Assembly: GCA_026120035.1 (NCBI GenBank)
Contig: JALRME010000029.1
Span: 492,451 to 556,450, forward strand
Direction of reading: 5' to 3'
Origin: Coleophoma eucalyptorum
Taxonomy: Eukaryota; Ascomycota; Leotiomycetes; Helotiales; Dermateaceae
DNA length: 64,000 bases
A program made the position numbers and the translations under genes. Positions 12,311 through 32,575 of the stretch are shown one piece after another. The notes beneath the pieces were generated by a model. That model worked only from the letters and a program-made list of their open reading frames with translations, was not told the origin of the DNA and did not search any database. Numbering within the stretch: the stretch's first letter is position 1; every line of letters begins with the position of its first letter.

Positions 12311-12611
12311 ATATAATGGTTCCGACGCACAGGAAACTAAGTATATATAGCATATATGTTTGGTCACCTCTGTATATACATTGTTCTCTCTAGGTTAATT
12401 AGATGATGTGTTAGACATAAATTCAGCCTTATACTTGTTGTCAAATATCGTTCTTCTACTATCATAAGTCCTGGAACTGGCAAGGAAGGAGCAATGGCAC
12501 TCGTCGTACTGGCGATGAGTACCTTCTCTCTATTAAATGAGTGAAAATAATTATCAGTTCTCAATGTATGGGATCCTCAACCCTTTAAGTTTGAAGGATA
12601 GAAAATGCTCT

Positions 12612-14582: not shown

Positions 14583-15980
14583 TCAGGCCCTGAAAACATC
14601 CAAGCACTCCTTGATGCTCTTCTCTTGCAATCCACGATACACGACCATCTCGTCAAGGATATCAAGCCCAATGGCATTCACCAAATCTCCTCGTCCGTGG
14701 TCATCACTCTCATCCTCCGTTTCATAACTCTTGAGACCTTCTTTCTCCCTGCCTAGATTACTTTGGAAAATCCCCGCTGCGGATAGAGGTAGGAAGTCCT
14801 CATAGGTGATTGGTTCATACTTGACCCAACCACCAGCGATCAAAGCATTTAAGTCCGCACCAGGTTCTGGGGTTCCCTGGGGTCTACTATCTGGGATGTA
14901 GTAACGTAGCCATGCTAGGTCTTCTTTCCTGAGTGCTTCCCAGGAGTCGGGGAACGGCGAGAAGATTTTCGCGTACGTTCCTGTCTTCTCGGGCCCAATG
15001 CCTTTGGACTTTGCTTCACCTACCAGGTCATCGTAGAGTTTCCTCCCCTTCGGCGTCAGTGCTGCGCCTCGTTGCTCTACTTCTCCGAATCTCGCACAGT
15101 GCCAGCCTTCGACGCCCACTCCTTGGTCACCACGGAAGAGAACTTCGTCTTCCATTGCCTTGAAGCTGGTTTGCCTCAATAAAATTTGACAGTTGCGGCT
15201 CCCCGGTGGTCCTTCGATGCTCTCTTTCATGGGGAGGCCATACGATTTCATCCCGGCTTGTACGGCTTCAATATCTAATGTTCGTGGCGTGAGATGGTTG
15301 ATGTGTGCTGTGGGGAAAGCGACAATGTCTGCCAACAGAGGAGAGCTGCATTTCAGCATCTGATACTCGGTAGTTGTGGCTGTTGAAGTCCGTGTCCACT
15401 TGAAAGTTTCAAGGCCATTTGAGATGTATTCTGAGACTTGGTTCGGAGTTAAGCCTCCTTGGTGCTCGGCAATCTTGATGAGCTCTAGGGTCCGGGGGGA
15501 GAATATGGCTCGTTTCGACAGAATGCCATCTACCAGCGGATGAAGTGCTTCTGGGATAAGCGAAGGTCTGAGAAGAGAGACGAAGAGTCGGAATGGGTTC
15601 TTGTTGAGAGAATCTAGATCTAGAGTTCGAAAGCAAGTTGAATGGACAGGTAAGGAGGCAAGCGATAGGTCATAATATCCAACAGGTTGCATGTCCATCA
15701 CCGAGAGAAAGCGTGCCATCATAGCCATCTCTGAAGCTGTACCGAGTCGTATAGCACCATGCCGTTCGTACTGTAAACGGGAGAATTGATCCGTCTCTTC
15801 CAAATGCTGCTTCAAGCACGGGTCTCGATCCAGAAACGAGCTATTGACATCGCTAACAAGACTGAGGAGGTTGCTATAGAGCGGAACCTCGGCCTTGTAG
15901 ATGCAGGACATGGCATTGGAGAATTGATGACGGATCATCGACGGGGCGACATACTGAGGTTTGTTAGTGATAGAACCCAT
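14583..15980 (-). CDS. hglS: DUF1338 / HglS-type 2-oxoadipate dioxygenase/decarboxylase
   Basis: A single exon of 465 residues, full length for the family. HglS enzymes are Fe(II)-dependent and convert 2-oxoadipate plus O2 to 2-hydroxyglutarate and CO2; they are known from bacterial lysine catabolism and from plants. The N-terminus RHQFSNAM...YKAEVPLY is a family hallmark. Candidate metal ligands are His74 (ERHGAIRLG), His226 or His229 (FPTAHINHLTPR) and a Glu near 300-302 (GEVEQRGAAL). The gene is divergent from the cupin gene with 861 bp between start codons, which suggests co-regulation with the catabolic cluster. What it does here is inferred: it could consume 2-oxoadipate from aromatic-ring catabolism, or simply serve lysine breakdown. 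Confidence 0.88.
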   Translation of the reverse strand: MGSITNKPQYVAPSMIRHQFSNAMSCIYKAEVPLYSNLLSLVSDVNSSFLDRDPCLKQHLEETDQFSRLQYERHGAIRLGTASEMAMMARFLSVMDMQPVGYYDLSLASLPVHSTCFRTLDLDSLNKNPFRLFVSLLRPSLIPEALHPLVDGILSKRAIFSPRTLELIKIAEHQGGLTPNQVSEYISNGLETFKWTRTSTATTTEYQMLKCSSPLLADIVAFPTAHINHLTPRTLDIEAVQAGMKSYGLPMKESIEGPPGSRNCQILLRQTSFKAMEDEVLFRGDQGVGVEGWHCARFGEVEQRGAALTPKGRKLYDDLVGEAKSKGIGPEKTGTYAKIFSPFPDSWEALRKEDLAWLRYYIPDSRPQGTPEPGADLNALIAGGWVKYEPITYEDFLPLSAAGIFQSNLGREKEGLKSYETEDESDDHGRGDLVNAIGLDILDEMVVYRGLQEKSIKECLDVFRA

Positions 15981-16841
15981 TCTGCAGGACTGCTATCGGG
16001 CGATGAAGTATAGACGGGAGAGGATTATCTGTCTGTTTGCTTCAACGTAAGAACAGTAAGAAGTAAATCTGGGGTTGACGCCCCAACATGCGGCAAGTTT
16101 CGGCTTTGAGTCTCACATGTTGCAGCCATAGTATCTAGGAGGAGGTGTTAGCCTTCCTCATTCAGCTACCCAGCTACCTTCTGGATGCATAACCCACCAA
16201 TAGCCATGGCACGTGAGACGGATTTCTAGCAGCCGTTTCCGTGTTGATAATGCGGAACGGTATTAACGGATGTAGCGGAATCCTCTTGAGTATAATTGGT
16301 AGACTATCAAGCCTAGGAGGTGCATCTGGAGCCTCTGATCCCTCGCTCAATCCAGTGTCGACGCCTATACTCAGCCAGATATCTAACTAAGCACATCGTC
16401 ATTTGCTCTCGGATATAGATTTACACGAAGGGCCGGATAGCTTTCCGGAAGTTTGGCGTGGCACCCACCACCAAGCTACCCCATACTTTGTGACGACGCG
16501 TAGCGCATAGGTAGCTGAGGTGAGGTATCCTCAGTGGATTACATGATATCCGATTTGATAACATATATCCCTCTGAAGGGTGGGACCTCGATTTCACATG
16601 TTGATATTTTGTGGAGATAAGAGACTGTTATCGAAAACGACGGCCGTCGCTTCAATGATTTTGGCCATTGGTTCGGATACCGGTCCGCGGTCCGAAGAAC
16701 ACTTCCAGCAAGAGCCGAACAAGCACAATCCAGGAAATACCCAGACAGCATGAGGTTATGTATTGAAGACTCAGAAGACAACGGGACGCCAACATTGTAT
16801 ATTGATCTGTGTCTTTGCCCAGAGTAACCATATTTTCCAAC
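15981..16841. promoter_or_regulatory. Divergent promoter hglS / cupin dioxygenase with CGG-type inverted repeats
   Basis: This gap holds two inverted CGG-containing repeats of the kind bound by Zn2Cys6 factors. CCGGA-N6-TCCGG lies at 16433-16448. TTCGGA (16672-16677) faces TCCGAA (16691-16696) with GGTCCGCG (16682-16689) between them. A CGGA-rich stretch lies at 16250-16285. Binding by the cluster regulator is inference. Confidence 0.4.
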
Positions 16842-17926
16842 ATGGTTCCTTCAATCGCCCAACTGCCCGATGAGTCTGTCGATGTGCTTGTAGGTGGTCT
16901 CAGAAAATCTGTAGACTCGAAGCAGAACCTCGAAAAGGTCATCCGTGGGAAAGAGCTCGTGCCGTTATGGAACACTGGCGGCCCGCCAACTGCACCAGAG
17001 CCTCATACAAAGCATATTCCAGCAGTATGGCGATATGAGGATACTAAAAGCCTTCTTTTGAGAGCTTCGGAACTGGTCGATGCAGCTGAAGCTGAGAGGC
17101 GTGCAGTGTTGATGATCAACCCGGGCCCCCGACAATCTCCCTTTACGTTGGATACTTTGCTTGCAGCCCATCAATTAATTTTGCCTGGCGAGCAAGCAAT
17201 TTGTCATCGGCATACGCCTTTTGCTGTTCGATTCTTAATTGAAGGCGATCAAGGTGAGTCCACAAGATTACAAAATGACATCTGAAGCTTACAAGCTCAG
17301 GGTATACTGCTATTTCTGGCAAGAAGATGTACATGGTTCCTGGTGACTTGATTATCACTCCAATGTGGAACTGGCATGACCATGGCAATGAAGGGAAGTC
17401 CAATGTAATCTGGCTGGATGGGCTTAACATCCCTCTTTTCAAACCATGGCCAGTCGATTTCACAGAGCACTATGATGAGCAGTTTGGGAAAACCACGCAT
17501 GAATCAAGAAAAGTGGCGGACGAAGAATGCGCCGAGATGAAGTTTCCATGGAGCGTTATGCAAAGTCGCCTCGACAGTATTTCTGGAGATCATGCAACGT
17601 GCGAGTACACTTTGCCTGACGGGAAGTCCGTCTCAACTACAATCGGAGCGTACGCGCACCGTATAGCTCCTGGAAAGGCAACAAAGCCTTGTCAAGAGAC
17701 CTCCAACTACGTTTTTCAAGTTCATGGTGGGTCGGGCTATGCTGAGGTCAGCTCATCGAAGGGGGATCAGACCTACAATTTGAAATGGAGTCGAGGAGAT
17801 GCGTTCATAGTTCCTAGCTGGTATCGATTCAAAATATACGCAGATGAAGGAGAGCCGGTGTATCTGTTCTCCTTTTCGGACAAGCCAATGCTACAGAACT
17901 TGGGATTCTGGAGGTCAAAGGAATAA
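16842..17926 (+). CDS. Gentisate 1,2-dioxygenase-family cupin (ring-cleavage dioxygenase)
   Basis: Exons 16842-17253 and 17301-17926 (47 bp intron) give 345 residues, normal for gentisate dioxygenases. The enzyme is a bicupin. The N-terminal cupin has the iron ligands His122 and His124 (CHRHTPFAVRF), with a third in the HDH of WNWHDHGNEG (163-165). The motifs LWNTGGPP, RFLIEGDQG and IWLDGLN match the family that cleaves gentisate, 1-hydroxy-2-naphthoate or amino-substituted analogues between C1 and C2. Lying in a 3-hydroxyanthranilate-type cluster, it might act on a hydroxylated aminobenzoate instead of gentisate; no maleylpyruvate isomerase or fumarylacetoacetase gene is in the window to complete a classical gentisate route. 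Substrate is therefore open. Confidence 0.9.
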
Positions 17927-18341
17927 ATGAAATAACATAATATACTGATTTTGATCTGGACTATCAGACCGAAGGGAAATTTGGATGCTGGGGGGGGGGG
18001 GGGCTGATGAAGGTGGATGAAGGTGATTTTATCCGGTTGGGATATACACAGTACCTTAGGGAACCCAGTGCGGATATTTGATAATCCCACAATTACTTAT
18101 TATTTGAGAGAGCTTAGTGCAAAAATCATCAGTCAATCTCATGAGCTCTTTCACGAACACAAATCTAAGATGTATCTCAGTCGCGCGCAAGCTGTACCCC
18201 AAGATCTGCTTAAATCTAGGTGGATTCAGGGGTGACGCAGGCCGATAAGATAAGTCTCGGAACCAAAATTTATAAGATGGCGCAAATCCCCCATTTTACA
18301 GCTGGCGCAGTAGGCAACGTTGACAGCACGCTAGATTTACA
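17927..18341. promoter_or_regulatory. Upstream region of the cluster regulator with tandem GATA sites
   Basis: Overlapping CGATAAG and AGATAAG (18244-18254) lie about 90 bp before the regulator start codon. Both fit the HGATAR consensus of AreA-type nitrogen regulators. A 14-nt G run at 17990-18003 follows the cupin gene. CGGAT-type half sites occur at 18030 and 18072. Confidence 0.4.
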
Positions 18342-20984
18342 ATGGATCACCAATTAAATGAAGCTGCTGCCTCAAAGACGACTTACTCACAAGAAAGGGT
18401 TTCCATTGCTCGAAAGCCTGATAATACAACGCGCCGTCCAATTGCACCTCCCAACATCAATCACCCTCCACATGATAGGCAGCGCGTTCGCCGAGCATGT
18501 GAGTGCTGTCGGAAGAAGAAGATTAAGTGCAATGGAGAGGAGCCTTGCCAAAGGTGCATCGACTATGGAGTTCAATGCGAATACGCGGATTATGTAGCTC
18601 CAGTGAAGCCGGGAGATAGTGGACAAGTTGAACAATTGGAAAATCGTATTGCTTCTATGGAATTACTATTTCGTCAGTTCCTGGAACGTTTTGAGAACAG
18701 CACTATAGCTCCCGCTTCATCAAACCCAGCGACTGCGACAATAAATACATATACAGCTGAGCCTCCAGTATCAGGGAATAAAGAGGCGTTAGAAACACTA
18801 GTTGAGATCAGAAGTCCAGGTAGAGATACTTTGGTAGATGGTCAATCTCTTGGGTGCGACGAGGCTGGCGAGTTTCAAGTAGCCAATGATAACTGCAACG
18901 ATAACCCCAGTCTAGACAACGAAGAGCCCGAAAGTCCATCAAACAGCCATTGCTATGCAGATGGGTTCGGTGAACTAGATGCGGATATGACTGGCCAGCT
19001 CAGATATGTAGGGCTGGGGTCTACAGCTTCTGTTGTGGATACTTGTGTTGGATTACGGCGGCACATTCATGAAGGTCTGGAAAAGAAAGGAATTGAAAGT
19101 GAAGAAACCATCTTCAGAAGCCCAGAGGCAACAGTCACTGAAGCAGAAACGCTAACGGCACGAGACGTGCTCGCAAGGGAAATGCCACCAACACCATTGG
19201 TACGCCTCTTCTTGAACACGTTTGCTGCTGACCTTTACTTTCTATTCCCAATTATTACGAAGGACGATATATATGCCATATATGAGAGGTTACAAAGAGA
19301 TGAACTGGTAGATACGGGATTTGCGGCTATCTTCTTTGCTGTGCTGGCCATTTCTGCTCTGCTCATTCCCTCAAGCCATGAAGTCTTCACCCAAATCGAC
19401 CGTAGCTATCAGGATATGGACTTTGGCGCAACTTTCTATAGTGCTTCTCTACGGTTTTCAAAATTTGCCCAAGGTACTACAGCTAGGAGAAGAGGGAAGC
19501 TCCAGGATAATGTTGTGGCTCTTGGGCTTCTGAGTATGTATCTAGCAGCCATCGGAAGCCAAGCAGAAGGGTGGATAATGGTAGGGAAGGCTATCAGGCA
19601 TGGACAGGATCTTGGCCTTCACGTAGGATTATGCAATAGATCCATTGTTATTTTATTGACTAATTCTTCTCAGAGATCACCCGAAAGGCTGCAGCTACCA
19701 CAGAAGGAGAGGAGTAGACGTCGTTACCTTTGGTGGTGCCTTTATGTTCTGGAGAGGCAGCTTAGCACCGCCTTAGGTAGGCCGTTGTCTATTGACGATG
19801 CCGACTGCGATGTGGAAATCCCTTGCAGAGAGACTGATCCATCACACATCGAAGAGACTGCTGGATTTGTCTCTATGATATATTTGCACAGAATCTTGGG
19901 TACTATTCTTAAAACGGTCAACTCAGTCAAGAATGCCGATAGTTGGCGAGAGGTGACCAAGTATGACGAACTTCGAAAGCGAATTCGGGACTCAAATGTG
20001 GCTCTTCACACTTGGGCAAAGGAACAGGTTCCTCATGAGATTAGGACTGCTCAATCAGGGAAGAATCTGATACAGAAGCATGTTGCATTATCTGCATTCT
20101 TTTGTGCTGTTATGCTCCTCCATCGAATTTTCATGAGTAATCCTCACAGGCCGTCACCTCTTGCAGACCCTCAAGCTCAGTTACAATGCGCAAAGGCTGC
20201 AAGAGACTGTATTCAAGGTGCTAAAGACTTTCTTCGGTGCGTCCCAAGAAGTCATTACCTTGTGTTTCACGGCCAGTACGTATTCGTCAGCGCAATCGTG
20301 CTTCTTCAATGTATTCGAGGATCCAACGATCCTCAATATATTGCCAGCGACTTGTCCCATGTCCAGTCCGCTCTTGAAAGCCTCAGAACCTTGGAGTCTT
20401 CTTGGATTGGGGCGAAGAAATGCAGGGCTATTGCGGAGGAGTACCTTGAATTTACCTATCATGTCCTCCAGGCTGGTCGAAAAGGCGTCTGCAATTTTGA
20501 ACACTCAACATCCAGGAGCTCATCTTCTAGACGGCATTCTCATACCCGGCCAACTATGAAGCGTGTATCAGATTATGTTGAAAGCAAGTCCCACTCTCCC
20601 GCTAAGTCCTTCAAGAAACGTAGGCTTCAAAACCCTCGACCACACTCTTCGACACAGACAAATATTAGCTTGGCATGCCAGAACTCTACTGAACTCGGCG
20701 AATCAACTCTAAGATCACGCAGCAACAATACATCAGAAACACCTCCACGGCTACGTGGGATTTTGAAGAAAGCCCAAGTGCATGTTCCTGATCCCCTGGA
20801 AACAGATGGTTCTTATTTCGACAATGTTATTGACAATGGTCTTGGACCAATGCTGTTACCTCAAGGTGTTTCTTTTCTACCTGAAGCATTCTTTCCTACC
20901 GCCGATTTTGAATTCGGCTCATCAGATACCTCAATGTTTCTTCCGGAGTTATGGAATACGTGGGACGGAAGTGATGTTTTCTAG
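18342..20984 (+). CDS. Zn2Cys6 transcription factor, probable cluster regulator
   Basis: Read with a 51 bp in-frame, stop-free intron (19623-19673), the exons 18342-19622 and 19674-20984 give 863 residues. The zinc cluster fits the consensus exactly: Cys53-X2-Cys56-X6-Cys63-X5-Cys69-X2-Cys72-X6-Cys79, followed by a short heptad-like dimerisation stretch (QLENRIASMELLFRQF). The middle region (about 280-620) is the fungal-specific transcription factor domain, with the WWCLYVLERQLSTALGRPL signature. The intron is preferred over a longer uninterrupted protein because removing it restores DLGLHRSPERL, and it has a branch-like TGACTAAT and a pyrimidine-rich TTCTCAG end. The C-terminal third is basic and disordered. 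It lies between the cupin and ACMSD genes, so pathway-specific activation is likely. The inducer is unknown. Confidence 0.9.
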   Translation: MDHQLNEAAASKTTYSQERVSIARKPDNTTRRPIAPPNINHPPHDRQRVRRACECCRKKKIKCNGEEPCQRCIDYGVQCEYADYVAPVKPGDSGQVEQLENRIASMELLFRQFLERFENSTIAPASSNPATATINTYTAEPPVSGNKEALETLVEIRSPGRDTLVDGQSLGCDEAGEFQVANDNCNDNPSLDNEEPESPSNSHCYADGFGELDADMTGQLRYVGLGSTASVVDTCVGLRRHIHEGLEKKGIESEETIFRSPEATVTEAETLTARDVLAREMPPTPLVRLFLNTFAADLYFLFPIITKDDIYAIYERLQRDELVDTGFAAIFFAVLAISALLIPSSHEVFTQIDRSYQDMDFGATFYSASLRFSKFAQGTTARRRGKLQDNVVALGLLSMYLAAIGSQAEGWIMVGKAIRHGQDLGLHVGLCNRSIVILLTNSSQRSPERLQLPQKERSRRRYLWWCLYVLERQLSTALGRPLSIDDADCDVEIPCRETDPSHIEETAGFVSMIYLHRILGTILKTVNSVKNADSWREVTKYDELRKRIRDSNVALHTWAKEQVPHEIRTAQSGKNLIQKHVALSAFFCAVMLLHRIFMSNPHRPSPLADPQAQLQCAKAARDCIQGAKDFLRCVPRSHYLVFHGQYVFVSAIVLLQCIRGSNDPQYIASDLSHVQSALESLRTLESSWIGAKKCRAIAEEYLEFTYHVLQAGRKGVCNFEHSTSRSSSSRRHSHTRPTMKRVSDYVESKSHSPAKSFKKRRLQNPRPHSSTQTNISLACQNSTELGESTLRSRSNNTSETPPRLRGILKKAQVHVPDPLETDGSYFDNVIDNGLGPMLLPQGVSFLPEAFFPTADFEFGSSDTSMFLPELWNTWDGSDVF

Positions 20985-21071
20985 CTTTTTTTTGTATTTC
21001 TTTTGGGTGTTGTTAGTTTCAAATAAGCCGCTAAATACAATACAGATTAACAATGAAAAAAGCACCAAAGC

Positions 21072-22331
21072 TTAAGCATCGCCTTTCACGAATTCGTCAA
21101 ACCTGCGTCTGAACTGTTTGCCAAAAGTTGACTCCAACCCAAGTAGTGCAATGGTATTTCCTGCCAACATATGCGCGCGTTCTTCCCAACCCAGAAAATC
21201 CCCTAGTTTATCTTCAGAGCACAGCATCTTTCCTGCCATTGGGACTTCTCCAAGCGGGAATGGATAATCACTACCCATTACAATCCTGTCAGAGCCAATC
21301 TTCTTGCACAAAAACTCAAGGAGATCTGGATCATGCACCAAGCTATCGATCCAGATATTCTGGCCGGATGCTAAATGCGCGGTCGGTGTCACTCCTCCTG
21401 CGTTGACAGCTACCAAGTCAGGACGACAGTCAAAACCGTGCTGAATTCTTCCTAGTAATGCTGGGAATGCACCTCCTGCATGAGCGAAGCAGAGCTTGAG
21501 CCCTGGGAATTGGAGGAGGACTCCGGATGATGTTAAAGCGTGTATTGCGAGGGCAGTCTCGCACGGCCTTGTTTTATGTCAGCTCATTACTTCAAATATC
21601 TTTCATGGAAGTACTCACATTCCTACAAGCCATGATGACCAGTATTTTGCCCATCGGTTTGGGTTTTCTTTCGGTAATGAATATCCAAGAGGATGTACGA
21701 ATACTGGCATGTCCAGCTCTTCGCATGCTTGCCAGAAAGGCTCCAAAGCAGGGTCGTCCAAATTCATATCAGCTATCGTTGTTCCAATCTCAACACCCTT
21801 CAGACCTAGCTCTTTTGACCTTCTCAATTCTTCCACCGACGTAGCCACATCTTGTAAAGGAACGGTAGCTAAACCAACGAATCTGGAAGGATACTGTTGA
21901 CATAAACTGGCAATATGATCATTTAAAGCTCGAGCAAGAATAGTAACTGGTTCGGCATCCTCATCATAGAAGAACAAAATTGGGATCGTGCTTAGCACTT
22001 GCACATCCACACCCGTCGCATCCATCTCACGGATTCGCGTTCCAGCATCGACACAATTCGCCTCTACCGTCCTGAAGAACTTATCGCCAACATACATGTC
22101 GATTTCTCCTACACCACCGTTCTTGGTGGGTAGAAGTTGTAGCCATGGGGATGAAGCGCCTGGAGTAGTGTATGAGGAGAGATCTGGTAGTGTTGATGGC
22201 ATAATATGAGTGTGCATGTCGATACGGAAAAGTGATGTCCCACTCTGCCCAACTGACCTGCTAGCAGCATCTGTGCGAGTAGGCGAGTGGCCGCAGCTCG
22301 TGCAACAATCGGATATGCGAGAGGGAGACAT
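21072..22331 (-). CDS. ACMSD: 2-amino-3-carboxymuconate-6-semialdehyde decarboxylase (ACMSD)
   Basis: Exons 22331-21619 and 21567-21072 (51 bp intron) give 402 residues. ACMSD is a Zn-dependent amidohydrolase-superfamily decarboxylase that turns ACMS into 2-aminomuconate-6-semialdehyde, diverting it from quinolinate/NAD synthesis. Matches along the protein are strong: metal site DMHTHIMP (His40, His42), [16 protein letters not shown], and [10 protein letters not shown] with the metal-binding Asp. [14 protein letters not shown] also follows the animal and bacterial enzymes closely. Compared with them it has about 35 extra N-terminal residues with several Cys (CCTSCGH). The reading frame is open further upstream to 22475, but the ATG at 22331 is the more conservative start. 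It is divergent from the 3-hydroxyanthranilate dioxygenase gene, whose product it would act on. Confidence 0.95.
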
Positions 22332-22702
22332 TTTATTTGGACACGGCAGAACTAACAACTTGGTGGAATATTTTCTGTATTGATGAAATACGGAGATTGG
22401 GAAGATAATATGCCTGGGAGGAATCTCCCACCCTTCTCTTGGTTTCAAGATCTTGCTTTTGGGACGCCGAGACATGGGGGCGGCTTGTGATGTTAATGGG
22501 TGTCACTGACACGGGCCGCATCCGGTCACGACACCCAAGTCAGGAATCCGCCGGCCCGAGCTCGGAATTGGCGATAGAGGGTGATTTGTTAAAAGACCGT
22601 CTTCTTCAACTTGAAACTGTATAGGAAATAATAATTACCAGGGACAATCTTTGAATTTTGACAGAATAGCATAATTATTATCATTACTGATACTCGTCAA
22701 AA
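22332..22702. promoter_or_regulatory. Divergent promoter ACMSD / 3-HAA dioxygenase
   Basis: A 371 bp bidirectional region. It contains CCGCATCCG (22516-22524), repeated exactly at 29282-29290 before the Rid gene, and a GC-rich TCCGCCGG just after it. Both could be regulator sites. Confidence 0.35.
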
Positions 22703-23342: not shown

Positions 23343-23991
23343 TCCAACATCAATTCGCTTTCTTCCATCTTCGCTCTTCTCTTGTACTCTCGTCCAAGAG
23401 AGAAATTCCCATCACTTCTCTGTGCTCAATGGCTTAAGTCAGCTTGATGGTACATGAAGCGTTCTGCCTCTCGTTACGCACAACACCCCTTTCAACCAAG
23501 CATATAAGCGAGAAAAGAGCCAGAGCAGCTCCCACCTTTGCATCTCAGTGTCCCACTTCCTATCAAGAGCCAATACCATCAAAGAGTCCGCGGACCGATT
23601 TCCGGATAAAGCTTGGGCTTTAAAGTTATCAATATTGAAGATAGACCCCTAGTTCCGCCGTCTGCTATCTGCATTATCATCCAAGGGAGAGTTCACTTCA
23701 GCCGCGAGCTCGACAGCAGGACAGGCCTGCACCCTAATGCACTGCAGCATGTAGACAGATTGTTCGGTAGCAAGGTTTAAGGCACGTAAGATAGATAGGC
23801 AAGACCTGCATGCAACGACAACGAATGTATGCATCTTGTAAAGATTGCACAATTGTATACAAAGAGGAAGCCCCCTTGCCCCATTCGTGATACTTATCCG
23901 GGGTTGAAATTTCTTCTTTCTTACGGCGGAAGAATATATTTCGACAGACAGAAGATCGCGTCGTCGCCGACTGTCGCTGTAGTCAATTGCA
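23343..23991. promoter_or_regulatory. Upstream region of the cluster transporter
   Basis: A perfect 10-bp palindrome GTCCGCGGAC (23586-23595) is followed by TCCGGAT. This resembles the sites before the cupin and FAD monooxygenase genes. No gene was seen. Confidence 0.35.
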
Positions 23992-25853
23992 ATGGCTATC
24001 ATCCAGACGTTCAAGAAGCACAAGGGCGCTTTCCTTGTCTCAGCTGCTGTCAACATTGGCTCTATACTCTTTGGCTTTGATACTGGTGTTGCTGGTGCTG
24101 TTGTTGCTTTAGCTAGGTGAGTCTTATGAAGTCAAGCCCCAGATGAATGTGCCCATTTATTCGGTACAATTCTCAACCAAAGTACCGCCTTTCTCACGCC
24201 ATCGTAAATAGCTTCAAAAAAGATTTCCACCTTGCTACGGATCCCGCTAAGCTCGCATACACATCTGGGAACATTGTCGCACTCCTCAATGCGGGTGCCT
24301 TCTTCGGCGCGATTGTTCCAGCATTGTTTACACGATGGATTGGACGCCGTCATCTTCTCGCCATTGCAGGCTGCTTCTTCCTGCTTGGTGGGATCCTACA
24401 AACAGCAGCACAAGCACCACATCTCTCAATGATATACGCTGGCCGTGTTTTGGCTGGGTTCGGTGTCGGAATGATCTCTAATACCGCACCTGTATTCGTG
24501 GCCGAATGTGCGCCCAAGGAACTTCGTGGCTTGATGATGTCTACATTCGAAATGTTCCTGGTATCTGGTGGCATGCTAAGTTACTGGACGACATACGGCT
24601 GTTCAGTGCATCTCCCCGCCGTTTCAAAGCAATGGCGAACACCGCTCTCTCTCCAGATCATCCTTGCAGCCCTCGTTGTGATCTCCTCCTTTACCATCTG
24701 CGAATCCCCGCGCTGGCTTGCAAAGCAAAATCGCTGGGAGGAGGCTGCTTCCACGCTTGCGCAATTGCGCGGAGCTGCAGTAGGTGATTCGGAAATTGTG
24801 GAGGAATTGGCCGAGATGCGCGCACAGCTTGACGAGGAATTGGCGCTCACGAATGGGAGGAGCATCAAGGAGATGTTCACGCCAAAAAATTTCCAGAGAC
24901 TTCTCTGGGGCTTGACTGTTGCGCTATTTGCTATGTGGTGCGGACATAACGCGATCTTGGTATTTTCCCTCATTTCACCCGATTTTCCACCTCCCGTGAA
25001 GAATTCTTGTTTGGCCTGACTGACACCACAATAGTATTACGGACCAAGTGTATTCAAACAAATCGGCTACACGTCGCAAAATGCTGCGCTGCTAGCCTCG
25101 GGCGTATTCACGTGCCTGAAGTTCGTCAGCACCATTATCTTCATCGCAGGAGGCGTCCATATCTTCAAGCGAAAGACAATGCTGATCATCGGTGCCTTTT
25201 TCATGGGCGGCTTCCTGTTTGCACTTGGTGCGATATTGAAGGCGTACCCACCTACAATGCCTGGAAATGGGAGTGGAAGTTCTAGTGCCAAGGCGATGGT
25301 ATGTATCTTCCTTTGCTTTCTGCATATGTAAACCAAATACTGCAGTTCGAAAGCTAACTTTTTTGAAGATGGCGCTCATCTACCTCTTTGTGGTGGCTTA
25401 CTCCGTTTCCTGGGGCCCACTGCAATGGATATACATGGGCGAGATCTTTCCCACGCGATTGCGTGACTATGGTATGGCAATGTGTGCTATGATGATTTGG
25501 CTGATGAACTATATCGTCTCCAAAATCGCGCCGATTGCTATTCTGAATATTGGTTGGAAGACGTGGATGGTATGTTCCTTTCCCTTTCTTTTTTGCTCTG
25601 TCGCGCTTTGAAGTGCTAGACAATCCGATGTTATTCAGAAATACTAAGTCCAGCACAGATCTTTGGAACAATGAATATCGCTGCAGCTATCTTCTCGGTG
25701 TTTTTACCCGAGACCAAGAACTTAGGTCTCGAGGAAATGGACGTGCTATTTGGCGTTGTCAAGGAAGAAGTCCGAGCCAGAGATGTAGAGGCAAAGATTT
25801 TCGAGGAAGTTAATGGAAATGGTGCTGTTGCTGAGAAGGGCGCATCTTCTTGA
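23992..25853 (+). CDS. MFS transporter, sugar-porter family
   Basis: Exons 23992-24116, 24212-24959, 25035-25298, 25369-25569 and 25659-25853 give 510 residues with about 12 membrane segments. Family motifs are ILFGFDTGVAGA in helix 1, TRWIGRR in loop 2-3, ESPRWLAKQNR before the central loop, and LPETKNLGLEEMD at the end. Sugar-porter members include carriers for quinate and other carboxylic acids besides sugars. Sitting in the middle of an aromatic catabolic cluster, it most likely imports the pathway substrate or a related aromatic acid; that is inference. Introns are 95, 75, 70 and 89 bp; that after residue 291 splits the HNAIL-YYGPSVF substrate region. Confidence 0.9.
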
Positions 25854-26687
25854 ACCGATGAGTTCAGGACGTGGTCAAAATATCTAGTTAATGTTTGTGA
25901 AAAGTTAGTGTTATAGGAGAGATACTAGAGGAGAATTGCACTCTCATGGCAATTTGGTTTCTATAATCGAACTTCTCCTGCTTAGTCTGGCAATTATAAC
26001 AGAATCAGCTAAAGCAGAACGAAATCAGGCTTGTGTATTTATTCCGTTGAAAGTCTACCTTGCAACAGAATTATGAAGCTACAAATCACTATCCTCACTG
26101 ACTTCCCACTTAATAGCTCTTAATAGCTCGTCCTGCTGCGTGAGCCGCAGTTCCATCATTGCAAGCTCGTGGGAAACCTCGGATCCGGTCTTTACTTCCT
26201 TACAGCAAAGACTATTATGCTGCACAAAACACATGGCAAAAAACAGCCCATAACGACTCAAGTTAATTTATGATGACTCCTCCTCGGTCCTCGCACCGAC
26301 TGTACCTTGCATTAGCCCAGTTAAATATTGCTTGCAAGGATTCGCAATTAGATGCTTATCCGGCTCGCTTGTCCCCATCTTCCCCTCGTCAGCACTTCCG
26401 GTCCGCGTTATCAACGGCAGAAGATTCGTGGAAACGAGGCCGGTGAGTGGAAGGAGGGGTCCAGCTGATATGCATATGCATGCTCTTCATTGCATCTTGA
26501 CATGAAAGGACAGCGGAACACATCATACCAGAATCGGTGCGCAAAATTATCGCGTCGCATTGCATGAGTAGTGGCCCGACCTTGACATCGAGCAGGGCCA
26601 TCATAGCGTCTCTTTATGTCTACCTAATATATCCACTCAGAAATGAGAAATAATCACAACTCAGTCTGACAGACAATCCTTCTCGCC
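25854..26687. promoter_or_regulatory. Intergenic, upstream of FAD monooxygenase
   Basis: AT-rich 3' sequence of the transporter is followed by the monooxygenase promoter. TTCCGGTCCGCG (26396-26407) shares an 8-mer, GGTCCGCG, with 16682-16689 before the cupin gene. No gene was seen. Confidence 0.35.
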
Positions 26688-28166
26688 ATGGGATCCTACC
26701 TTTCCTCCAGAGGGTCGAACAGTCACACAAGTGCTGCCAAAGATGATAAAGAATTCAAAGTCTTGATCGCTGGAGCCGGTATCGTCGGCTTAACTATCGC
26801 ACAGGGCTGCTTGAATAATGGCATCCCATTCGAGATCTTTGAGCGAGATCAGAAAGGCTCCAGGGCACAAGGCTGGGCACTAACTCTGCATTGGTGTCTG
26901 AGATCACTCGAGAGGACCATTGGGCCAAAGATATCTGCCTTGCTTCCAACTGTAATCCCTCCTTTCAACTACGTATCCCTTCTATAGGAGAGACATGCAC
27001 ATTTTCTAGACTATATACTGACACCAAGGAGGCAGCAGTTGATACCACCCTCCGCGAAGACGAGGGAAATTTCCTCTTCTACAATTGTGCCACCTGCAAA
27101 CCGAGGTACAAGATCCCACCCTCCAAGCGACGGCTCAGACTCTCGCGACAGAAGCTGCGTGATCTCATCGCGACAGGAATCGACGTGCAGGAAGGTAAAG
27201 GCATCAAGAGCATCGAGACACTGCCAGATGGCCAGGGAGTGCGAGCGCATTTTGGAGACGGGACTAGTGCAGAGGGTTCAATAATTATTGGTGCCGATGG
27301 CAACAATAGTGTGGTGCGCCAACATCTTTTGCCTGAGAAGGCAAAATTAAATCTCCTGCCTGTGAACTTGGTCGGTGTTGTGAGGCGATTCACACCTGAG
27401 CAGGCAAAGCCAGTCAGAGAATTAGATCCCTTGCTCTTCCAGGGTTTGAATCCCGAGACGGGAAATTATTTGTGGTTTAGTTTTCAAGTACGTCTTATTT
27501 CAAAACCCTCCTCTTCTGCGAGCATTATTATTGACATACTTCCAGGAATGCATACCTTCTCCCACCGCCCCAACCGACAATGATCAAAACTCATATGACG
27601 CCCTAGTGATCATCTCCTGGCTGATCAAGGATCCTGTGGCGGATGCCATCCCAAAAACACACGCAGAACGTATCGCGATGATGAAGAAGCGTGCAGAGGG
27701 CTATGCAGAACCCCTACGAAGCATCGTTATGGATATTCCTGACGACCTAGATTTCACCACACCATTACGGCTCTCAGACTTCCCTACCATTCCTTGGGAG
27801 AATTCTCAGGGGCGGGTCACGCTTGCAGGAGATTCAGCACATGCTATGACAATGTAAGGATTTCTCTTCCCCTAAATGCTTTATTCGCTTTATTGGGTTC
27901 GAATGTTGACAATACGAAGGTATCGAGGCGAAGGTGCCAACCACGGAATTCTAGATGCGGCGCTTCTGATTGATGAGCTTGTGAAGGTACACCAAGGAGA
28001 GAAGAATCTTAAAGACGCTGTTGATGCATATGAGGCAGAGATGATTCCGAGAGCTCATGGAGCAGTCTTGAAGAGTCGGCAGGCGGCACTTGATGCCCAT
28101 GATTGGGAGGCGTTGACGGAGGATAGTCCCAGTATTGGAGCTAGAATTCCGCCTGTCACAGCTTGA
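26688..28166 (+). CDS. FAD-dependent aromatic monooxygenase
   Basis: Exons 26688-26951, 27029-27487, 27546-27853 and 27920-28166 give 425 residues. The Rossmann FAD motif IAGAGIVGLTIAQG lies at about 25-38, the mid DG motif is GADGNNSVVR, and the second FAD motif is GDSAHAMTM-YRGEGANHGI split by intron 3. These mark a group A flavoprotein hydroxylase using NAD(P)H and O2. The first intron was resolved by frame and alignment: acceptor at 27028 gives LLPT-EAAVDTTLRED; nearer AGs give too short an intron or a wrong frame. The protein ends soon after the FAD domain, without the C-terminal thioredoxin-like domain of phenol hydroxylases. In this cluster it could hydroxylate anthranilate or a related benzoate; substrate is not shown. 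Confidence 0.87.
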
Positions 28167-28598
28167 AGAGCCTGAGATGAAATAAATGTTTTGAGATTTG
28201 ACATACGGCTGTATAGATTTATATGGAGGTTGTAAATTAAGAGACTCCATGACAGCCCTGTCGTTTGGATTATATATCTATCTCTAAGTGGGTTCATGAC
28301 TATAGAAGAATTATGTTAATTTTGAACTTGCAAGGAACTCAAAAGGGCGCCATGCAACATGCAGGTTAAGTAAAAAATATACTCATCAACTGATTAACTT
28401 AATCTTACTTAAGGTCATCCTGTCTGTAACTTATAATAGATGGATGACGGAGGATCACTACACCAATAAGACATTTGCGAGAAATCAGACGGTACCATGA
28501 ACATACCCAAGTCACTTTTAAGCGGAGCAGCAAGAGATTTATTTGTATATCGATCACCAGCAGTCTCACATGTCTCATAAATATTCATAGAGCCATGC
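28167..28598. other. Intergenic, convergent 3' ends
   Basis: AT-rich, with no coding content seen. It lies between the stops of the monooxygenase and Rid-family genes. Confidence 0.5.
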
Positions 28599-29051
28599 TT
28601 AATCCAGAACTACAGCGGTGCACTTAATCTCAATACACAGCCTCTCATTTGGCAGAGCTGCCACTTGAATACACGTCCTTGCCGGGGCCTTCGACTTATC
28701 TGGCCAGACCTTATTCCACTCAGCATTCATACGCGCATAGTCCTTCATATCAGTCAAGAAGATTGTCGCATCAATGATGCTTTCCCATCCACACTTGCCC
28801 TCCGTGGCGCCATTGATCACGGTCTTGATGTTTTGCAGGACCGCAGCTGTCTGTTCTGCAACGTCCAGAGTGTGCGTTCCATCAGCGGCTGTCGTGCATC
28901 CTGCGTAGGACCCGTCACCTCGTCGTGATGATATCCCGGAGACAAAGAGTGTCCTGCTGCTTGGAGGAGTTGTGCGCGCGTGTGGGTAGTTGGCGAGACC
29001 TTGCGCGCCGGTTGCTGGGAGGAAGTAAGCGGTTCCGTTGGGAGAAGCCAT
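28599..29051 (-). CDS. Rid (YjgF/YER057c) family protein, probable 2-aminomuconate deaminase
   Basis: A single exon of 150 residues. The Rid fold signatures are present: LFVSGISSRR (strand region), QTAAVLQNIKTVI, DATIFLTDMKDYARMN, and the C-terminal PNERLCIEIKCTAVV. Bacterial 2-aminomuconate deaminases (AmnD, NbaF) belong to this family and end in a very similar IEIK-A-AV pattern. They release ammonia from 2-aminomuconate to give 4-oxalocrotonate. Generic RidA proteins instead hydrolyse 2-imino acids. The neighbours (HAA dioxygenase, ACMSD and an ALDH8A1-type dehydrogenase) make the specific deaminase role the better guess. The Arg and Glu of the usual active site appear as NER and EIK. Unlike housekeeping RidA, it has a Pro/Ser-rich extended N-terminus. 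Confidence 0.85.
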   Translation of the reverse strand: MASPNGTAYFLPATGAQGLANYPHARTTPPSSRTLFVSGISSRRGDGSYAGCTTAADGTHTLDVAEQTAAVLQNIKTVINGATEGKCGWESIIDATIFLTDMKDYARMNAEWNKVWPDKSKAPARTCIQVAALPNERLCIEIKCTAVVLD

Positions 29052-29364
29052 GTCGAAGATTGCAGGAAAGTGAAAGAAGAGGAGGGTTGATTCTGGCGAG
29101 CAGTTGGAAAATGAAGTTTACGGATGGAATAAAAAATGTAAAGTGGTTCAGTAGGTTAAAGAAATCCGAATCCCACCAGGCTGAAGAATGTTTCTCACCT
29201 GAGCAGCATGGCGGGGTCGTTTCCTCATTTCAACCCCACTCTGAGCCGGAAGTTAGCCTTTCCCTCCACAAACTTCACGGTCCGCATCCGTGTTTATATT
29301 CCCTCACTTTCTTATAACACATCAGCCTTGGATACATCGGCATACCAACTTCCAAATATATTCA
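29052..29364. promoter_or_regulatory. Upstream region of the Rid-family gene
   Basis: CGGTCCGCATCCG (29278-29290) contains both the GGTCCGC element seen at 16682 and 26400 and the CCGCATCCG 9-mer seen at 22516. The site is about 230 bp before the start codon on the minus strand. Confidence 0.4.
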
Positions 29365-30434
29365 TTACAGCGCAACGAATTCTAAAATCCTCTTCCCAAG
29401 CCTATCACCATCTAATCCGAGCCCCAGGAAGTAACTAATATGATTTTGACCCTTCAGAACCTCCAATATCGGCATGCGCGCAAACCGCTTCCGATACGCA
29501 TCTACAAACATCAGATTCCCGTGCACTATTTCGGTCGGATCAAATTCTCCCACGACAAGCAGGATGTTCATGTTTTTTAGGTTATCGGTTTTTGAATCAA
29601 GGAATTGTGCTACACCCGTCTTACTCATAATATCATCGTTCGTGCTGGCGCCGTGGTAGGAGAGCATGTTCTTCCTGCGCCGTTCCTGTCGGAGGTCGTA
29701 CCAAAGCGGGGCACTCAGCAAGATCGCACCGTGTAGAGTGATACCGGCGTCGCTGATATTGTTACTAAATAGTGCGGATGCGAGATGGGCAGCTCCTGCA
29801 CTTTGGCCGATAGCCGTGAGGTGGTTTGGGTCGCCGCCGTACTGTGAGACGTTGTCCTTGATCCATGCGAGTGCTGCTGTCACATCTTGTGCGCCGGAGG
29901 GATACACAGCTTCGGGGATTACGCGGTAGGTTGCTAGTGCACAGATGGTGTTTTCTGATGCGAAATAATTACCTGGTTTTGGTATGTTAGGTGTGCACGA
30001 ATTGTTGAATATCGATGTAGACCGGCAGTGGTGATAAATGCTGCGATTTGTACGTACCGATGTGGCCATGCATCGAAGGCGTGATGTCGTTATCTCCAGC
30101 AATAAATCCGCCGCCGTGAAAGAAGACCACGACTGGTAGTTCCTTGACGGACGTTGTGATCGGAGTATATAACTTTTCTCGAGTACTCAAGTCAGAAACC
30201 ACTTACTTCATCTACTAGCTAACAAAGCTGTAAAAGAACATAAGGTGAAGTACATACATCAATGCGATGTCGGTCAGAAGAACCGTACTTCAATCCCTTC
30301 TCGACCTTTACACTCGCTTTATAGCTCAAGGCGCGAGCTTCATGTAGAGGCTCGAATAACCTCTCCATATCGGAATTGGTGGCCAGTGACCATACATTGC
30401 CGTGTTTGGCAATACATGCTGCGACCTCGTCCAT
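29365..30434 (-). CDS. Alpha/beta hydrolase, HGGG type (possible amidase, formamidase or esterase)
   Basis: Exons 30434-30258, 30172-30058 and 29972-29365 (two 85 bp introns) give 299 residues without a signal peptide. The oxyanion motif FFHGGGF lies at about 77-83. The nucleophile is Ser155 in GQSAGAAH, the acid is Asp in VVGEFDPTE and the base is His in KGQNHISYF. The N-terminal YGSSDRHRIDLYTP is typical of the kynurenine-formamidase-like and esterase branch. In this cluster a deformylase or deacylase that frees an anthranilate or kynurenine derivative would make sense, but a carboxylesterase cannot be excluded. It is divergent from the aldehyde dehydrogenase gene. Confidence 0.85.
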
Positions 30435-30916
30435 TGCAATATGATCGCTTGACTTCTCGGATACGGGACGGGATAACGGGATCTACGCTTTGCAGCTGGA
30501 TAAGGCCAAGAAGAGGGAGATGAAGGACACCGAGTTCAAATTTTGAATATCTGATTGAGTAGCAACATTTGTATCACAATACAATCATATAATCTGCTAG
30601 AAAATAGAACTGATACCGCTGTCCCTCCAAACTGCTGACTGTCACATCGCTCGTAAGTGGGACGGCAACAGGGGGCGGATGCCAGTCCGGATGTTATCCG
30701 ACGCTATCCACCTATGACCTTCCTGCTCGCATAAATCTCCATGACGACCCCTCCAACGGCGCAGGTGGGGGATAAGGAAAAGCCGACGTCAGTCTCAGAC
30801 AAAAATTATATCACGATATAGACATAGCTTTAGAAAGTGAGCTTTCAAGGGAGTGTTTAATTAGCTACTGCGAATTTGATTCTCCTGTATAGCAGAGCAG
30901 AGAGTAAGCTACAGAC
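30435..30916. promoter_or_regulatory. Divergent promoter hydrolase / aldehyde dehydrogenase
   Basis: 482 bp between two start codons. GTCCGGATGTTATCCGAC (30685-30702) carries two CGGA half sites facing each other, about 215 bp before the dehydrogenase. Confidence 0.35.
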
Positions 30917-32575
30917 ATGGGTTCTAGTAGCGACGCCGCCGACAAGGTCGGCACCGAGACCATCACCGCACTCTGGGAGTGCAACACTCTAGAAAAGGCC
31001 GAATCTCTCCTCTCCTCACAGGGCAGCGCAGGCTTCCCGCTCCAAAACTTCGTGTCCAGCACATTTAACACCTCTGCCTCAACGGAGTATCTCGATTCCC
31101 ATAACCCGAAAACCGGTAAGGTCTTCTCACGCGTGCCCATCTCGTCCGCGGAGGAAGTAGACCGCGCAGTTCAGGATGCCACCGAGGCATTTTCAGAATG
31201 GAGCAAGACGACAAGAGCAGCACGCAGTGCGTACTTAAGCAAGATTGCGGGATTGATCGAGGAGAACCGAGAACTGTTTGCGGTTTGGGAGAGTATTGAT
31301 CAGGGAAAGACGCTAGAGCGGGCTAGGATAGAGGTTGACCGGGCAGTGTCGAATTTCTCGTAAGTCCTGCAACGATAGATTTCATTTTATATTATATGGG
31401 AAAGCTTACAGGATTTCAGGTATTTCTCGACGTATATCCTACATGAAGAGAATACCGTCCGCATGATTGACAATGTAGCACTAACCTACGAACATCGATC
31501 CCCCGCCGGCGTATTTGCACTCATCTCCCCTTGGAACATGCCCCTGTACCTTCTGACCTGGAAAATCGCGCCCTGCATTGCATTCGGATGCACAGCCGTC
31601 GCAAAACCTAGCGAAGTAACCTCCATCTCGGCGTTTCTCCTGACTGAGATCTTCCGTCAAGCGTCTTTGCCCGCAGGTGTGGTTAATATGGTTTTTGGTA
31701 ACGGTGCAACCACAGGCTCGGCCTTGGTCAAGCATGAAAAAGTTAAGGGCATTAGTTTCACGGGGGGAACAGCAACGGGTATTCAGATCAGGAAGGATAC
31801 GGCACATCAAATTTATAAACATCTTAGTCTGGAGCTTGGGGGAAAGAACCCTACTCTTGTTTTTGATGATGTTGATATGGAAAAGGCAGTTGCAACGGCA
31901 GCAATGGCAGCTTTTGAGAACCAAGGAGAGGTGAGAGGATCTATATTCTTCTTTTCTTCTGAGGAATAATGCAGTAAATACTAACATCTATAGATCTGTC
32001 TTTGCGGCTCGAGAATCTACGTTCAGAAATCCATCTACGCCACCTTCGTCACGCAATTCACTGCTCACGTCGCAGAAAAATATAAAGTCGGTCAACGTAT
32101 CGGCGCCGTGGTGTCCTTACCACATTACCAAAAGATCCGCTCTTATTTGTCCCTTGCCGAAGAAGAAAAGGCTGTCTTCGAACTCGGTTCCCTCCCGCCC
32201 ACTACACCCGAGAAGGGATATTGGATCGCGCCCTCAATCCTCACATCTGTCTCACCAACTTCCCGAATCATGACGGAAGAAATCTTCGGGCCTGTCGTAA
32301 CGATCCATCCTTTCGAAGACGAATCAGAAGCTATCTCGCTGGCCAACGGGAATCCCAACGGCTTGGCAGCTGTATTGCTCACGAAGGATGGAGCGAGGAT
32401 ACGTCGTGTTGGTGAGAAGATTGAAGCGGGGCTTGTGTGGGTTAATTGCTGGTTAGTGAGGGAGCTGGGAACTGGATTTGGGGGAATGAAGAATTCCGGG
32501 ACTGGTAGGGAGGGAGGTGCGTTCTCAAGGGAGGTTTTCACGAATTTGAGAACGGTACACGTGCCTGACTTTTGA
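30917..32575 (+). CDS. Aldehyde dehydrogenase, ALDH8A1 type (2-aminomuconate-semialdehyde dehydrogenase)
   Basis: Exons 30917-31359, 31420-31930 and 31994-32575 give 511 residues. The enzyme oxidises 2-aminomuconate-6-semialdehyde to 2-aminomuconate with NAD+. Diagnostic stretches are ISPWNMPLYLLTWKIAP, LSLELGGKNP (general-base Glu), NQGEICLCGSRIYVQKSIY with nucleophile Cys320, and LVWVNCWLVRELGTGFGGMKNSG. The Arg in WLVREL matches the substrate-binding Arg of bacterial AMSDH and human ALDH8A1. Two small regions are shorter than in relatives: KYKVGQ runs almost directly into IGAVVS, lacking about seven residues, and the segment before GYWIAPSIL is trimmed. The N-terminus has about 50 extra residues. 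The catalytic Cys codon lies just after intron 2. Confidence 0.93.

Follow-up and report, generated by a model that had tools for sequence, protein, structure and literature searches.

An extended 3-hydroxyanthranilate gene cluster in Coleophoma eucalyptorum with a likely pathway end at HglS

This locus raises the question of how far a fungal gene cluster carries 3-hydroxyanthranilate (3-HAA), and which enzyme ends the route. In the window, that is the whole stretch of 64,000 nucleotides that was analysed, 3-hydroxyanthranilate 3,4-dioxygenase (3HAO), ACMSD, an ALDH8A1-like dehydrogenase of the 2-aminomuconate 6-semialdehyde dehydrogenase (AMSDH) type and a Rid protein resembling 2-aminomuconate deaminase lie together in 11.5 kb (21072-32575). 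A preliminary description had recognised these four genes, and their positions were borne out, with GT-AG introns. The Zn2Cys6 regulator, MFS transporter, FAD_binding_3 monooxygenase, esterase-type hydrolase and cupin that it also named were confirmed by Pfam, but its list omitted the first gene of the interval, HglS. Enzyme identity and published recurrence give good support to its reading as a eukaryotic cluster dedicated to 3-HAA degradation. The statement that no standard description as a fungal cluster existed was wrong. Martins et al. (2021) named and drew the set in Ascomycota as a fungal 3-hydroxyanthranilate catabolic cluster, with the route below 2-aminomuconate left open in the available part of the article (PMC7842363), and novelty of the core cluster is therefore rejected. 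The core of four enzymes is thus already known; HglS and the gentisate-type cupin are additions, which apparently occur in some other fungi as well. We consider it fairly likely that the window holds a cluster of this type in an extended form, including the likely pathway end, which would lead from 3-HAA through 2-oxoadipate to D-2-hydroxyglutarate and bypass glutaryl-CoA.

Gene content of the cluster

The features are collected in Table 1. Re-translation of the spliced models gave no internal stops in nine of the ten genes, and the hydrolase, the tenth, was stop-free with the exon ends listed. For the first intron of the FAD gene, several ends are possible.

Table 1. Positions of cluster genes and candidate regulatory sites in the window
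Feature	Position	Strand	Description
HglS, 2-oxoadipate dioxygenase/decarboxylase (DUF1338)	14583..15980	-	single exon, 465 aa; PF07063, PDB 6w1g
HglS/cupin divergent intergenic region	15981..16841		two CGGTCCG sites (16681, 16688)
CGGTCCGC, candidate shared regulatory site	16681..16688	+	motif search
Gentisate-1,2-dioxygenase-type bicupin	exons 16842-17253, 17301-17926	+	345 aa; PDB 2d40 E=3e-50
Zn2Cys6 transcription factor	18342..20984	+	880 aa as one open frame; PF00172, PF04082
ACMSD	exons 22331-21619, 21567-21072	-	402 aa; human ACMSD 2wm1
3-hydroxyanthranilate 3,4-dioxygenase (3HAO)	exons 22703-22868, 22921-23037, 23086-23342	+	179 aa; PF06052, TIGR03037, 1zvf
CGGTCCGC, candidate shared regulatory site	23590..23597	-	motif search
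MFS (sugar_tr) transporter	23992..25853	+	five exons, 510 aa; PF00083 346 bits
CGGTCCGC, candidate shared regulatory site	26399..26406	+	motif search
FAD-dependent monooxygenase (FAD_binding_3)	26688..28166	+	four exons in model used, 432 aa; PF01494
Rid-family protein, probable 2-aminomuconate deaminase	28599..29051	-	150 aa; PF01042, 6izh
CGGTCCGC, candidate shared regulatory site	29278..29285	+	motif search
Esterase-type alpha/beta hydrolase	exons 30434-30254, 30201-30058, 29972-29365	-	310 aa; PF20434/PF07859
2-aminomuconate 6-semialdehyde dehydrogenase (AMSDH, ALDH8A1-type)	exons 30917-31359, 31420-31930, 31994-32575	+	511 aa; 4i1w

3HAO scored 183 bits against PF06052, lay above the TIGR03037 cut-off and matched 1zvf at E=5e-48. 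A second 3HAO, 57% identical over a 134-column alignment, lies on contig C5. ACMSD matched human ACMSD (2wm1) at E=1.2e-80 and the top non-ACMSD chain at 6e-28. Its residues H40, H42, H213, H267 and D338 line up with human H6, H8, H174, H224 and D291, which we take to be metal ligands and catalytic residues. An assignment as 2,3-dihydroxybenzoate or resorcylate decarboxylase was rejected by the PDB match scores. No model of the NCBIfam library, which is curated for bacteria and archaea, matched ACMSD. Judged by score, the predicted identities of ACMSD and 3HAO are firm.

AMSDH and Rid lead the nearest other families by about 4-5 bits, and both score under every NCBIfam cut-off shown. The best match of the dehydrogenase was P. 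fluorescens AMSDH (4i1w; 332.4 bits, E=4e-98), with betaine aldehyde dehydrogenase close behind at 327.7 bits. R142, N187, E286, C320 and R474 line up with R120, N169, E268, C302 and R464 of the P. fluorescens enzyme, presumably its key functional residues. With this narrow score margin, the AMSDH call leans on the conserved substrate residues and on context. The Rid protein matched 2-aminomuconate deaminase 6izh best (49.6 bits, YabJ next at 45.5) and is probably such a deaminase, a prediction that leans on context.

The cupin reached 221 bits against TIGR02272, below the equivalog cut-off of 442. In the alignment with 2d40 it keeps the first-domain histidine site HRH...WHDH, which we take to be the metal site. 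It is a recurrent partner in such clusters and probably a dioxygenase that cleaves the ring of a related aromatic acid. The FAD monooxygenase matched PDB 4hb9 best (E=8e-24), and the hydrolase matched esterase 4zrs (E=8e-35). Its top matches are esterases, and a role as kynurenine formamidase is unsupported. Among the cluster genes Pfam revealed no Aspergillus-type BVMO, SDR or amino-acid transporter, which are drawn for some Aspergillus clusters and are not core (PMC7842363). A flavin/NAD Rossmann fragment was seen at 45540-46199, 13 kb from the cluster.

The Zn2Cys6 factor is a probable regulator of the cluster genes and the MFS protein a probable substrate importer, and the FAD monooxygenase and esterase probably supply aromatic precursors. 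These accessory genes bear on the source of 3-HAA. The cluster might use or detoxify an outside aromatic amine or ester through esterase, FAD monooxygenase and transporter, with 3-HAA as the point of convergence, rather than serve tryptophan turnover. No kynureninase lies in the cluster, three loci being on other contigs of the genome; an esterase-type hydrolase and an FAD hydroxylase lie inside it; and the A. terreus cluster goes up on salicylate (PMC7842363). We regard this source as possible, if on the unlikely side; it is compatible with the extended pathway, and both can hold.

HglS and the predicted end of the pathway

HglS scored 461.8 bits against PF07063 (Pfam scan, cut-off 25), and its best solved match was PDB 6w1g (E=1.2e-120). 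With 535.5 bits it falls just below the 550-bit cut-off of the NCBIfam HglS equivalog. In the alignment with the P. putida chain the metal triad H74, H229 and E300 and the substrate arginine R78 are all present. We take the P. putida triad to be numbered H70/H226/E294, and the aligned P. putida chain reads H, H and E there. Its substrate arginine is Arg74 in the numbering of PMC7286885, and DUF1338 proteins with this arginine are predicted in that article to act on 2-oxoadipate. Where the P. putida enzyme has Val402, the window protein has Leu.

Across the 45.26-Mb genome a single HglS match was found, the one in the window, and one close copy of ACMSD, the next match being 31% identical. Since the sole HglS and the sole close ACMSD found both sit in the cluster, a chance co-location is argued against.

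From the enzyme identities, 3HAO would open the ring of 3-HAA to ACMS, ACMSD would decarboxylate ACMS to 2-aminomuconate semialdehyde, AMSDH would oxidise this to 2-aminomuconate, and Rid would deaminate the product to 2-oxo-hexenedioate. A reductase, not recognised among the cluster genes, would then yield 2-oxoadipate. HglS, to judge by family, active site and linkage, would convert 2-oxoadipate to D-2-hydroxyglutarate and CO2, and the carbon would reach 2-oxoglutarate without glutaryl-CoA. The path to 2-oxoadipate is incomplete, because Pfam revealed no clear 2-oxo-hexenedioate or 2-aminomuconate reductase among the cluster genes. A Zn-dependent ADH at 35.1-36.4 kb was considered for this step and rejected; nothing pointed to such a role, and a rhodopsin-domain gene lies in between.

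Linkage in other fungi and a candidate promoter motif

Among the matches listed, at least eight contigs of other assemblies carry HglS and/or the cupin together with ACMSD, or HglS together with the cupin. These are contigs of Pestalotiopsis fici (PFICI_02119/02126), Pleurostoma richardsiae, Sporothrix thermara (HglS, cupin and ACMSD together), Coleophoma cylindrospora (BP6252_03868/03869; a near relative of the window), Acephala macrosclerotiorum (BDZ45DRAFT_715845/715846), Xylariales PMI_506 and Capronia coronata, and a contig of 1,906,144 bases. Linkage was read from shared contigs and gene numbers among the matches listed, not from neighbouring DNA, and on three of the contigs the gene numbers are adjacent or close. 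The contigs with HglS or cupin plus ACMSD presumably span Leotiomycetes, Sordariomycetes and Eurotiomycetes. ACMSD and cupin fall on separate contigs in the matches listed for Thozetella PMI_491 and Xylariales AK1849. Of the other HglS and cupin rows on long contigs, most lack a partner among the matches listed. In the HglS tree of 38 rows, the six with known linkage, the window among them, belong to a single clade of 16 rows (95/90).

The 8-mer CGGTCCGC occurs four times in the 4443 intergenic bases of the cluster, not at all in 45 kb elsewhere in the window, and three times in 200 kb of the genome. The Poisson P of this motif, which was found post hoc, is 1.4e-6, or about 0.05 over all 8-mers. 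Random segment sets contained some 8-mer (at least 40% GC) common to at least four segments in 69 of 300 cases. As a motif common to the cluster promoters, CGGTCCGC is a candidate and suggestive only. The AT-rich 7-mer AGATTTA shows a stronger excess, with 7 occurrences where 0.26 are expected (P 1.1e-8).

These data bear on the reading that the four-enzyme cluster stops at 2-oxo-hexenedioate, handled by unlinked genes, while HglS and cupin form a separate nearby module, for instance for lysine or gentisate use. HglS is known from D-lysine catabolism in P. putida (PMC7286885), clusters without HglS and cupin are described in Martins 2021 (PMC7842363), HglS and cupin are a divergent pair at one cluster edge, and no cluster gene was seen to make 2-oxoadipate. 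However, HglS or cupin recurs on ACMSD contigs across three fungal classes among the matches listed, one HglS was found in the genome, and CGGTCCGC stands in the HglS/cupin intergenic region and three other cluster intergenic regions, a weak and post hoc sign. We judge a separate module unlikely. That HglS acts directly on 2-oxohex-4-enedioate, the unsaturated keto acid, to yield 2-hydroxyglutaconate with no need of a reductase, seems improbable: it would suit the lack of a recognised reductase among the cluster genes (Pfam), the C3 methylene of the published reaction, which on chemical grounds should be free in this tautomer, and the Leu at the Val402 position, but P. putida HglS reportedly turned over 2-oxoadipate alone among the 2-oxo acids assayed, a panel listed without an unsaturated acid in the available part of PMC7286885.

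For the extended pathway beyond this locus the chances appear evenly balanced. A subset of Ascomycota would carry a longer 3-HAA cluster, with HglS as the end of the route from 3-HAA through 2-oxoadipate to D-2-hydroxyglutarate and a diverged gentisate-type cupin as recurrent partner, which may explain the link between gentisate and 3-HAA. If true, the physiological role of fungal HglS would be in aromatic, not lysine, catabolism, and the step left open by Martins 2021 would be closed. The widespread fungal DUF1338 family would gain a role, and D-2-hydroxyglutarate would be tied to aromatic breakdown. Recurrent neighbours in HglS-bearing fungi would be the place to seek the reductase of 2-aminomuconate or 2-oxo-hexenedioate.

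Comparison with known systems

Bacterial 3-HAA loci, to which we take the names nba/onb to apply, hold 3HAO, ACMSD, an AMSDH-like ALDH and Rid together, as the window does. The set compared was the best 80 of at least 578 confirmed 3HAO loci, with flanks of 10 kb at most on each side and several contigs shorter. HglS was near 3HAO in 0 of these 80 loci, and HglS as a part of bacterial 3-HAA loci is rejected on this set. Among the 33 that bear ACMSD, 20 have an FAA-hydrolase-like gene, and neither HglS nor the cupin occurs in any of them. The window shows the opposite pattern: one query found no FAA-hydrolase-like ORF in it, and no aldolase or tautomerase family appeared among the 30 window proteins and ORFs scanned, small ORFs aside. 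A bacterial-style pathway ending was thus not seen in the window, and HglS is present instead.

The cluster of Martins 2021 shares with the window the clustered 3HAO, ACMSD, AMSDH and YjgF/Rid (AMDA) candidate, and in A. terreus also a nearby FAD monooxygenase (PMC7842363). Unlike that cluster, as far as the available part of the article describes it, the window has HglS, a gentisate-type cupin, an esterase and a Zn2Cys6 factor inside. The words DUF1338, hydroxyglutarate and cupin are absent from the main text of Martins 2021 (PMC7842363) and of FAMeDB (PMC13094099). We found no report tying HglS or the cupin to a fungal 3-HAA cluster in the open-access literature, including the available parts of PMC7842363, PMC7286885, PMC13094099, PMC13151070, PMC8478523 and PMC8929692. 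FAMeDB (2026) counts 3-HAA among eight fungal central ring-opening intermediates, and its fungal gentisate and gentisate-like clusters have a gentisate-dioxygenase-type cupin, as does the window (PMC13094099). The likely canonical gentisate type of this genome is on contig C10 beside FAA hydrolase and ALDH genes, unlike the window cupin, for which one query found no FAA-hydrolase-like ORF in the window. The two cupins are 42% identical over the largest matched piece.

P. putida HglS and plant FLO7 have the family, the metal triad and the 2-oxoadipate-binding arginine in common with the window protein, but the latter is linked to genes of aromatic-ring catabolism, whereas P. putida HglS belongs to lysine catabolism and has Val402 in place of Leu (PMC7286885). 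Some fungal and animal steps also coincide. The glutarate branch of the animal kynurenine route runs through 2-aminomuconate. Up to this compound its enzyme steps are identical to those of the window; the animal route then continues to glutaryl-CoA (PMC13151070), whereas the window HglS would give 2-hydroxyglutarate.

The 3-HAA core enzymes

The window spans C23:492451-556450 of a 45.26-Mb fungal assembly whose proteins here resemble those of Coleophoma closely. Gene models place ten genes between 14583 and 32575. To their left come an IMP dehydrogenase and two further ORFs, one with alpha/beta-hydrolase matches that stay below threshold and the other lacking any Pfam match. To their right are a protein with a rhodopsin domain and an alcohol dehydrogenase of the Zn-dependent type. 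The ORF at 12537-14111 (+), of 524 aa, is Ser/Thr-rich, has no Pfam match and, read by eye, has a possible transmembrane segment close to its C-terminus. A flavin/NAD-type Rossmann fragment, part of an oxidoreductase, was seen at 45540-46199 (+), 13 kb right of the cluster.

Genes of the cluster in window coordinates (3HAO, 3-hydroxyanthranilate 3,4-dioxygenase; AMSDH, 2-aminomuconate 6-semialdehyde dehydrogenase; Rid, probable 2-aminomuconate deaminase; HglS, 2-oxoadipate dioxygenase/decarboxylase)
Order	Gene	Position	Strand
1	HglS	14583-15980	-
2	gentisate-type cupin		+
3	Zn2Cys6 factor		+
4	ACMSD		-
5	3HAO	22703-23342	+
6	MFS transporter		+
7	FAD monooxygenase		+
8	Rid		-
9	esterase-type hydrolase		-
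10	AMSDH-type ALDH		+

The preliminary description had noted 3HAO, ACMSD, ALDH8A1-type ALDH and Rid genes together. This was confirmed, and the top solved-structure match of each is an enzyme of the 3-hydroxyanthranilate (3-HAA) route. All solved matches listed for 3HAO were 3HAO, and for ACMSD the margin was wide. Margins were small for AMSDH (332.4 bits versus 327.7 for betaine aldehyde dehydrogenase) and Rid (49.6 bits versus 45.5 for YabJ). 3HAO passed the TIGR03037 cut-off and was the only one of the four above NCBIfam cut-offs among those listed; ACMSD had no match to NCBIfam models. In alignments, ACMSD and AMSDH conserve the residues aligned with known metal and substrate residues. The 3HAO positions aligned with Cupriavidus R47, H51, E57, H95, R99 and E110, which we take to be functional residues, are invariant.

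A search of the 45.26-Mb genome found one close ACMSD; among the matches listed, it is 96% identical over 89% of the query to a protein of Coleophoma crateriformis. A second 3HAO copy on another contig, C5 (57% identity, 134-column alignment), presumably serves NAD synthesis. At the second metal site, the cluster 3HAO retains one Cys pair (CPVC), whereas its first CxxC is replaced by CSKG; both pairs (CTNC, CNKC) are present in the C5 copy, as in bacterial and yeast chains. The genome has three kynureninase loci (C13:1123536, C73:40981 and C68:322301-324038), none on the cluster's contig.

HglS and cupin genes

The first gene matched P. putida HglS (6w1g) with E=1.2e-120, and the metal triad and substrate arginine are all intact in the alignment. 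It was the sole PF07063 match found in the genome search and is 89% identical to a C. cylindrospora protein among the matches listed. PMC7286885 predicts that family members bearing this arginine act on 2-oxoadipate, and calls for study of what the fungal homologues do.

The cupin is of the gentisate-dioxygenase type, with 2d40 as its top match. Its score lies far under the gentisate equivalog cut-off; the histidine motif is intact, and identity to a C. cylindrospora protein is 96% among the matches listed. The C10 paralogue is adjoined by an FAA hydrolase, whereas the window cupin is not. This second gentisate-dioxygenase-type cupin (G000:C10:912000-920000) also neighbours an aldehyde dehydrogenase, and the locus is probably a canonical gentisate-type cluster.

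Linkage was surveyed by comparing the lengths of the longest contigs, names and gene numbers by eye in the best 120 rows per protein search (of 7995 scored for ACMSD, 8000 for HglS and 497 for the cupin). Among these rows, ACMSD and HglS fell on the same contig in Pestalotiopsis fici (PFICI_02126, PFICI_02119), Pleurostoma richardsiae and Sporothrix thermara. HglS and the cupin did so in Coleophoma cylindrospora (BP6252_03868, 03869), on a 1,906,144-base contig and in S. thermara, and ACMSD and cupin in Acephala macrosclerotiorum (BDZ45DRAFT_715845, 715846), Xylariales sp. PMI_506, Capronia coronata and S. thermara, two rows of which were joined to its contig by identical size (194,650). In total at least eight contigs carried shared pairs, one of them belonging to a species closely related to the fungus studied here. 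Gene numbers were adjacent or close in three cases; a common megabase contig is weaker evidence than adjacency. ACMSD and cupin rows lay on separate contigs in Thozetella sp. PMI_491 and Xylariales sp. AK1849 (cupin just 43% identical), and the majority of the remaining long-contig HglS and cupin rows had no partner among the rows listed.

A midpoint-rooted HglS tree was built from 38 rows, the window's own and 37 of the 120 listed. All six rows with known linkage, the window included, fell inside one clade (support 95/90) of 16 rows, of which they make up six. Two other groups, Fusarium avenaceum/Leptodontidium and Torrubiella/Xylogone/Penicillium, stand apart from this clade.

Proposed pathway and known systems

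Enzyme families, residues and linkage are the basis of the pathway we propose. 3-HAA would yield 2-oxo-hexenedioate by way of ACMS, 2-aminomuconate semialdehyde and 2-aminomuconate. A reductase that is unlinked or went unrecognised would then form 2-oxoadipate, which HglS may convert to D-2-hydroxyglutarate. A candidate regulatory site shared by cluster intergenic regions, CGGTCCGC, was found post hoc and is suggestive only. CCGGATA (5) and AGATTTA (7) were also over-represented in the intergenic regions of 15981-30916 versus 200 kb of genome.

The preliminary description had proposed a dedicated eukaryotic degradation cluster, with no standard description of it known to its author. This interpretation is supported in part, but the novelty claim falls because Martins et al. 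2021 (PMC7842363) had already reported a 3HAO-ACMSD-AMSDH(-Rid) cluster from Ascomycota, which in A. terreus is induced by salicylate, and FAMeDB 2026 (PMC13094099) lists 3-HAA as one of eight fungal central intermediates. A word search of the main text of PMC13094099 returned no 2-oxoadipate, HglS, DUF1338 or cupin, and an HglS and cupin extension of the fungal 3-HAA cluster was not found in the open-access literature searched. The core is already published and HglS and cupin are the addition, which turns an open step of the pathway into a testable one.

As a bacterial control set, the best 80 of 578 3HAO loci were examined (+/-10 kb where available). ACMSD was present in 33/80, ALDH in 49/80 and Rid in 36/80; HglS was found in 0/80 and a gentisate-type cupin in two, neither with ACMSD. 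The 33 ACMSD loci of this set carried ALDH (29/33), Rid (30/33) and an FAA-hydrolase-like gene (20/33), and HglS and cupin in 0/33 each. The same FAA-hydrolase query found no such ORF in the window. When two bacterial loci were scanned with Pfam, FAA hydrolase turned up at L060, and none in the ten ORFs covered at L033. L060 (Amycolatopsis palatopharyngis) unites ALDH, FAA hydrolase, Rid, 3HAO, ACMSD and kynureninase, a near-complete bacterial counterpart. From the FAA-hydrolase versus HglS and cupin counts, bacteria and this fungus have a common core with different linked ending genes.
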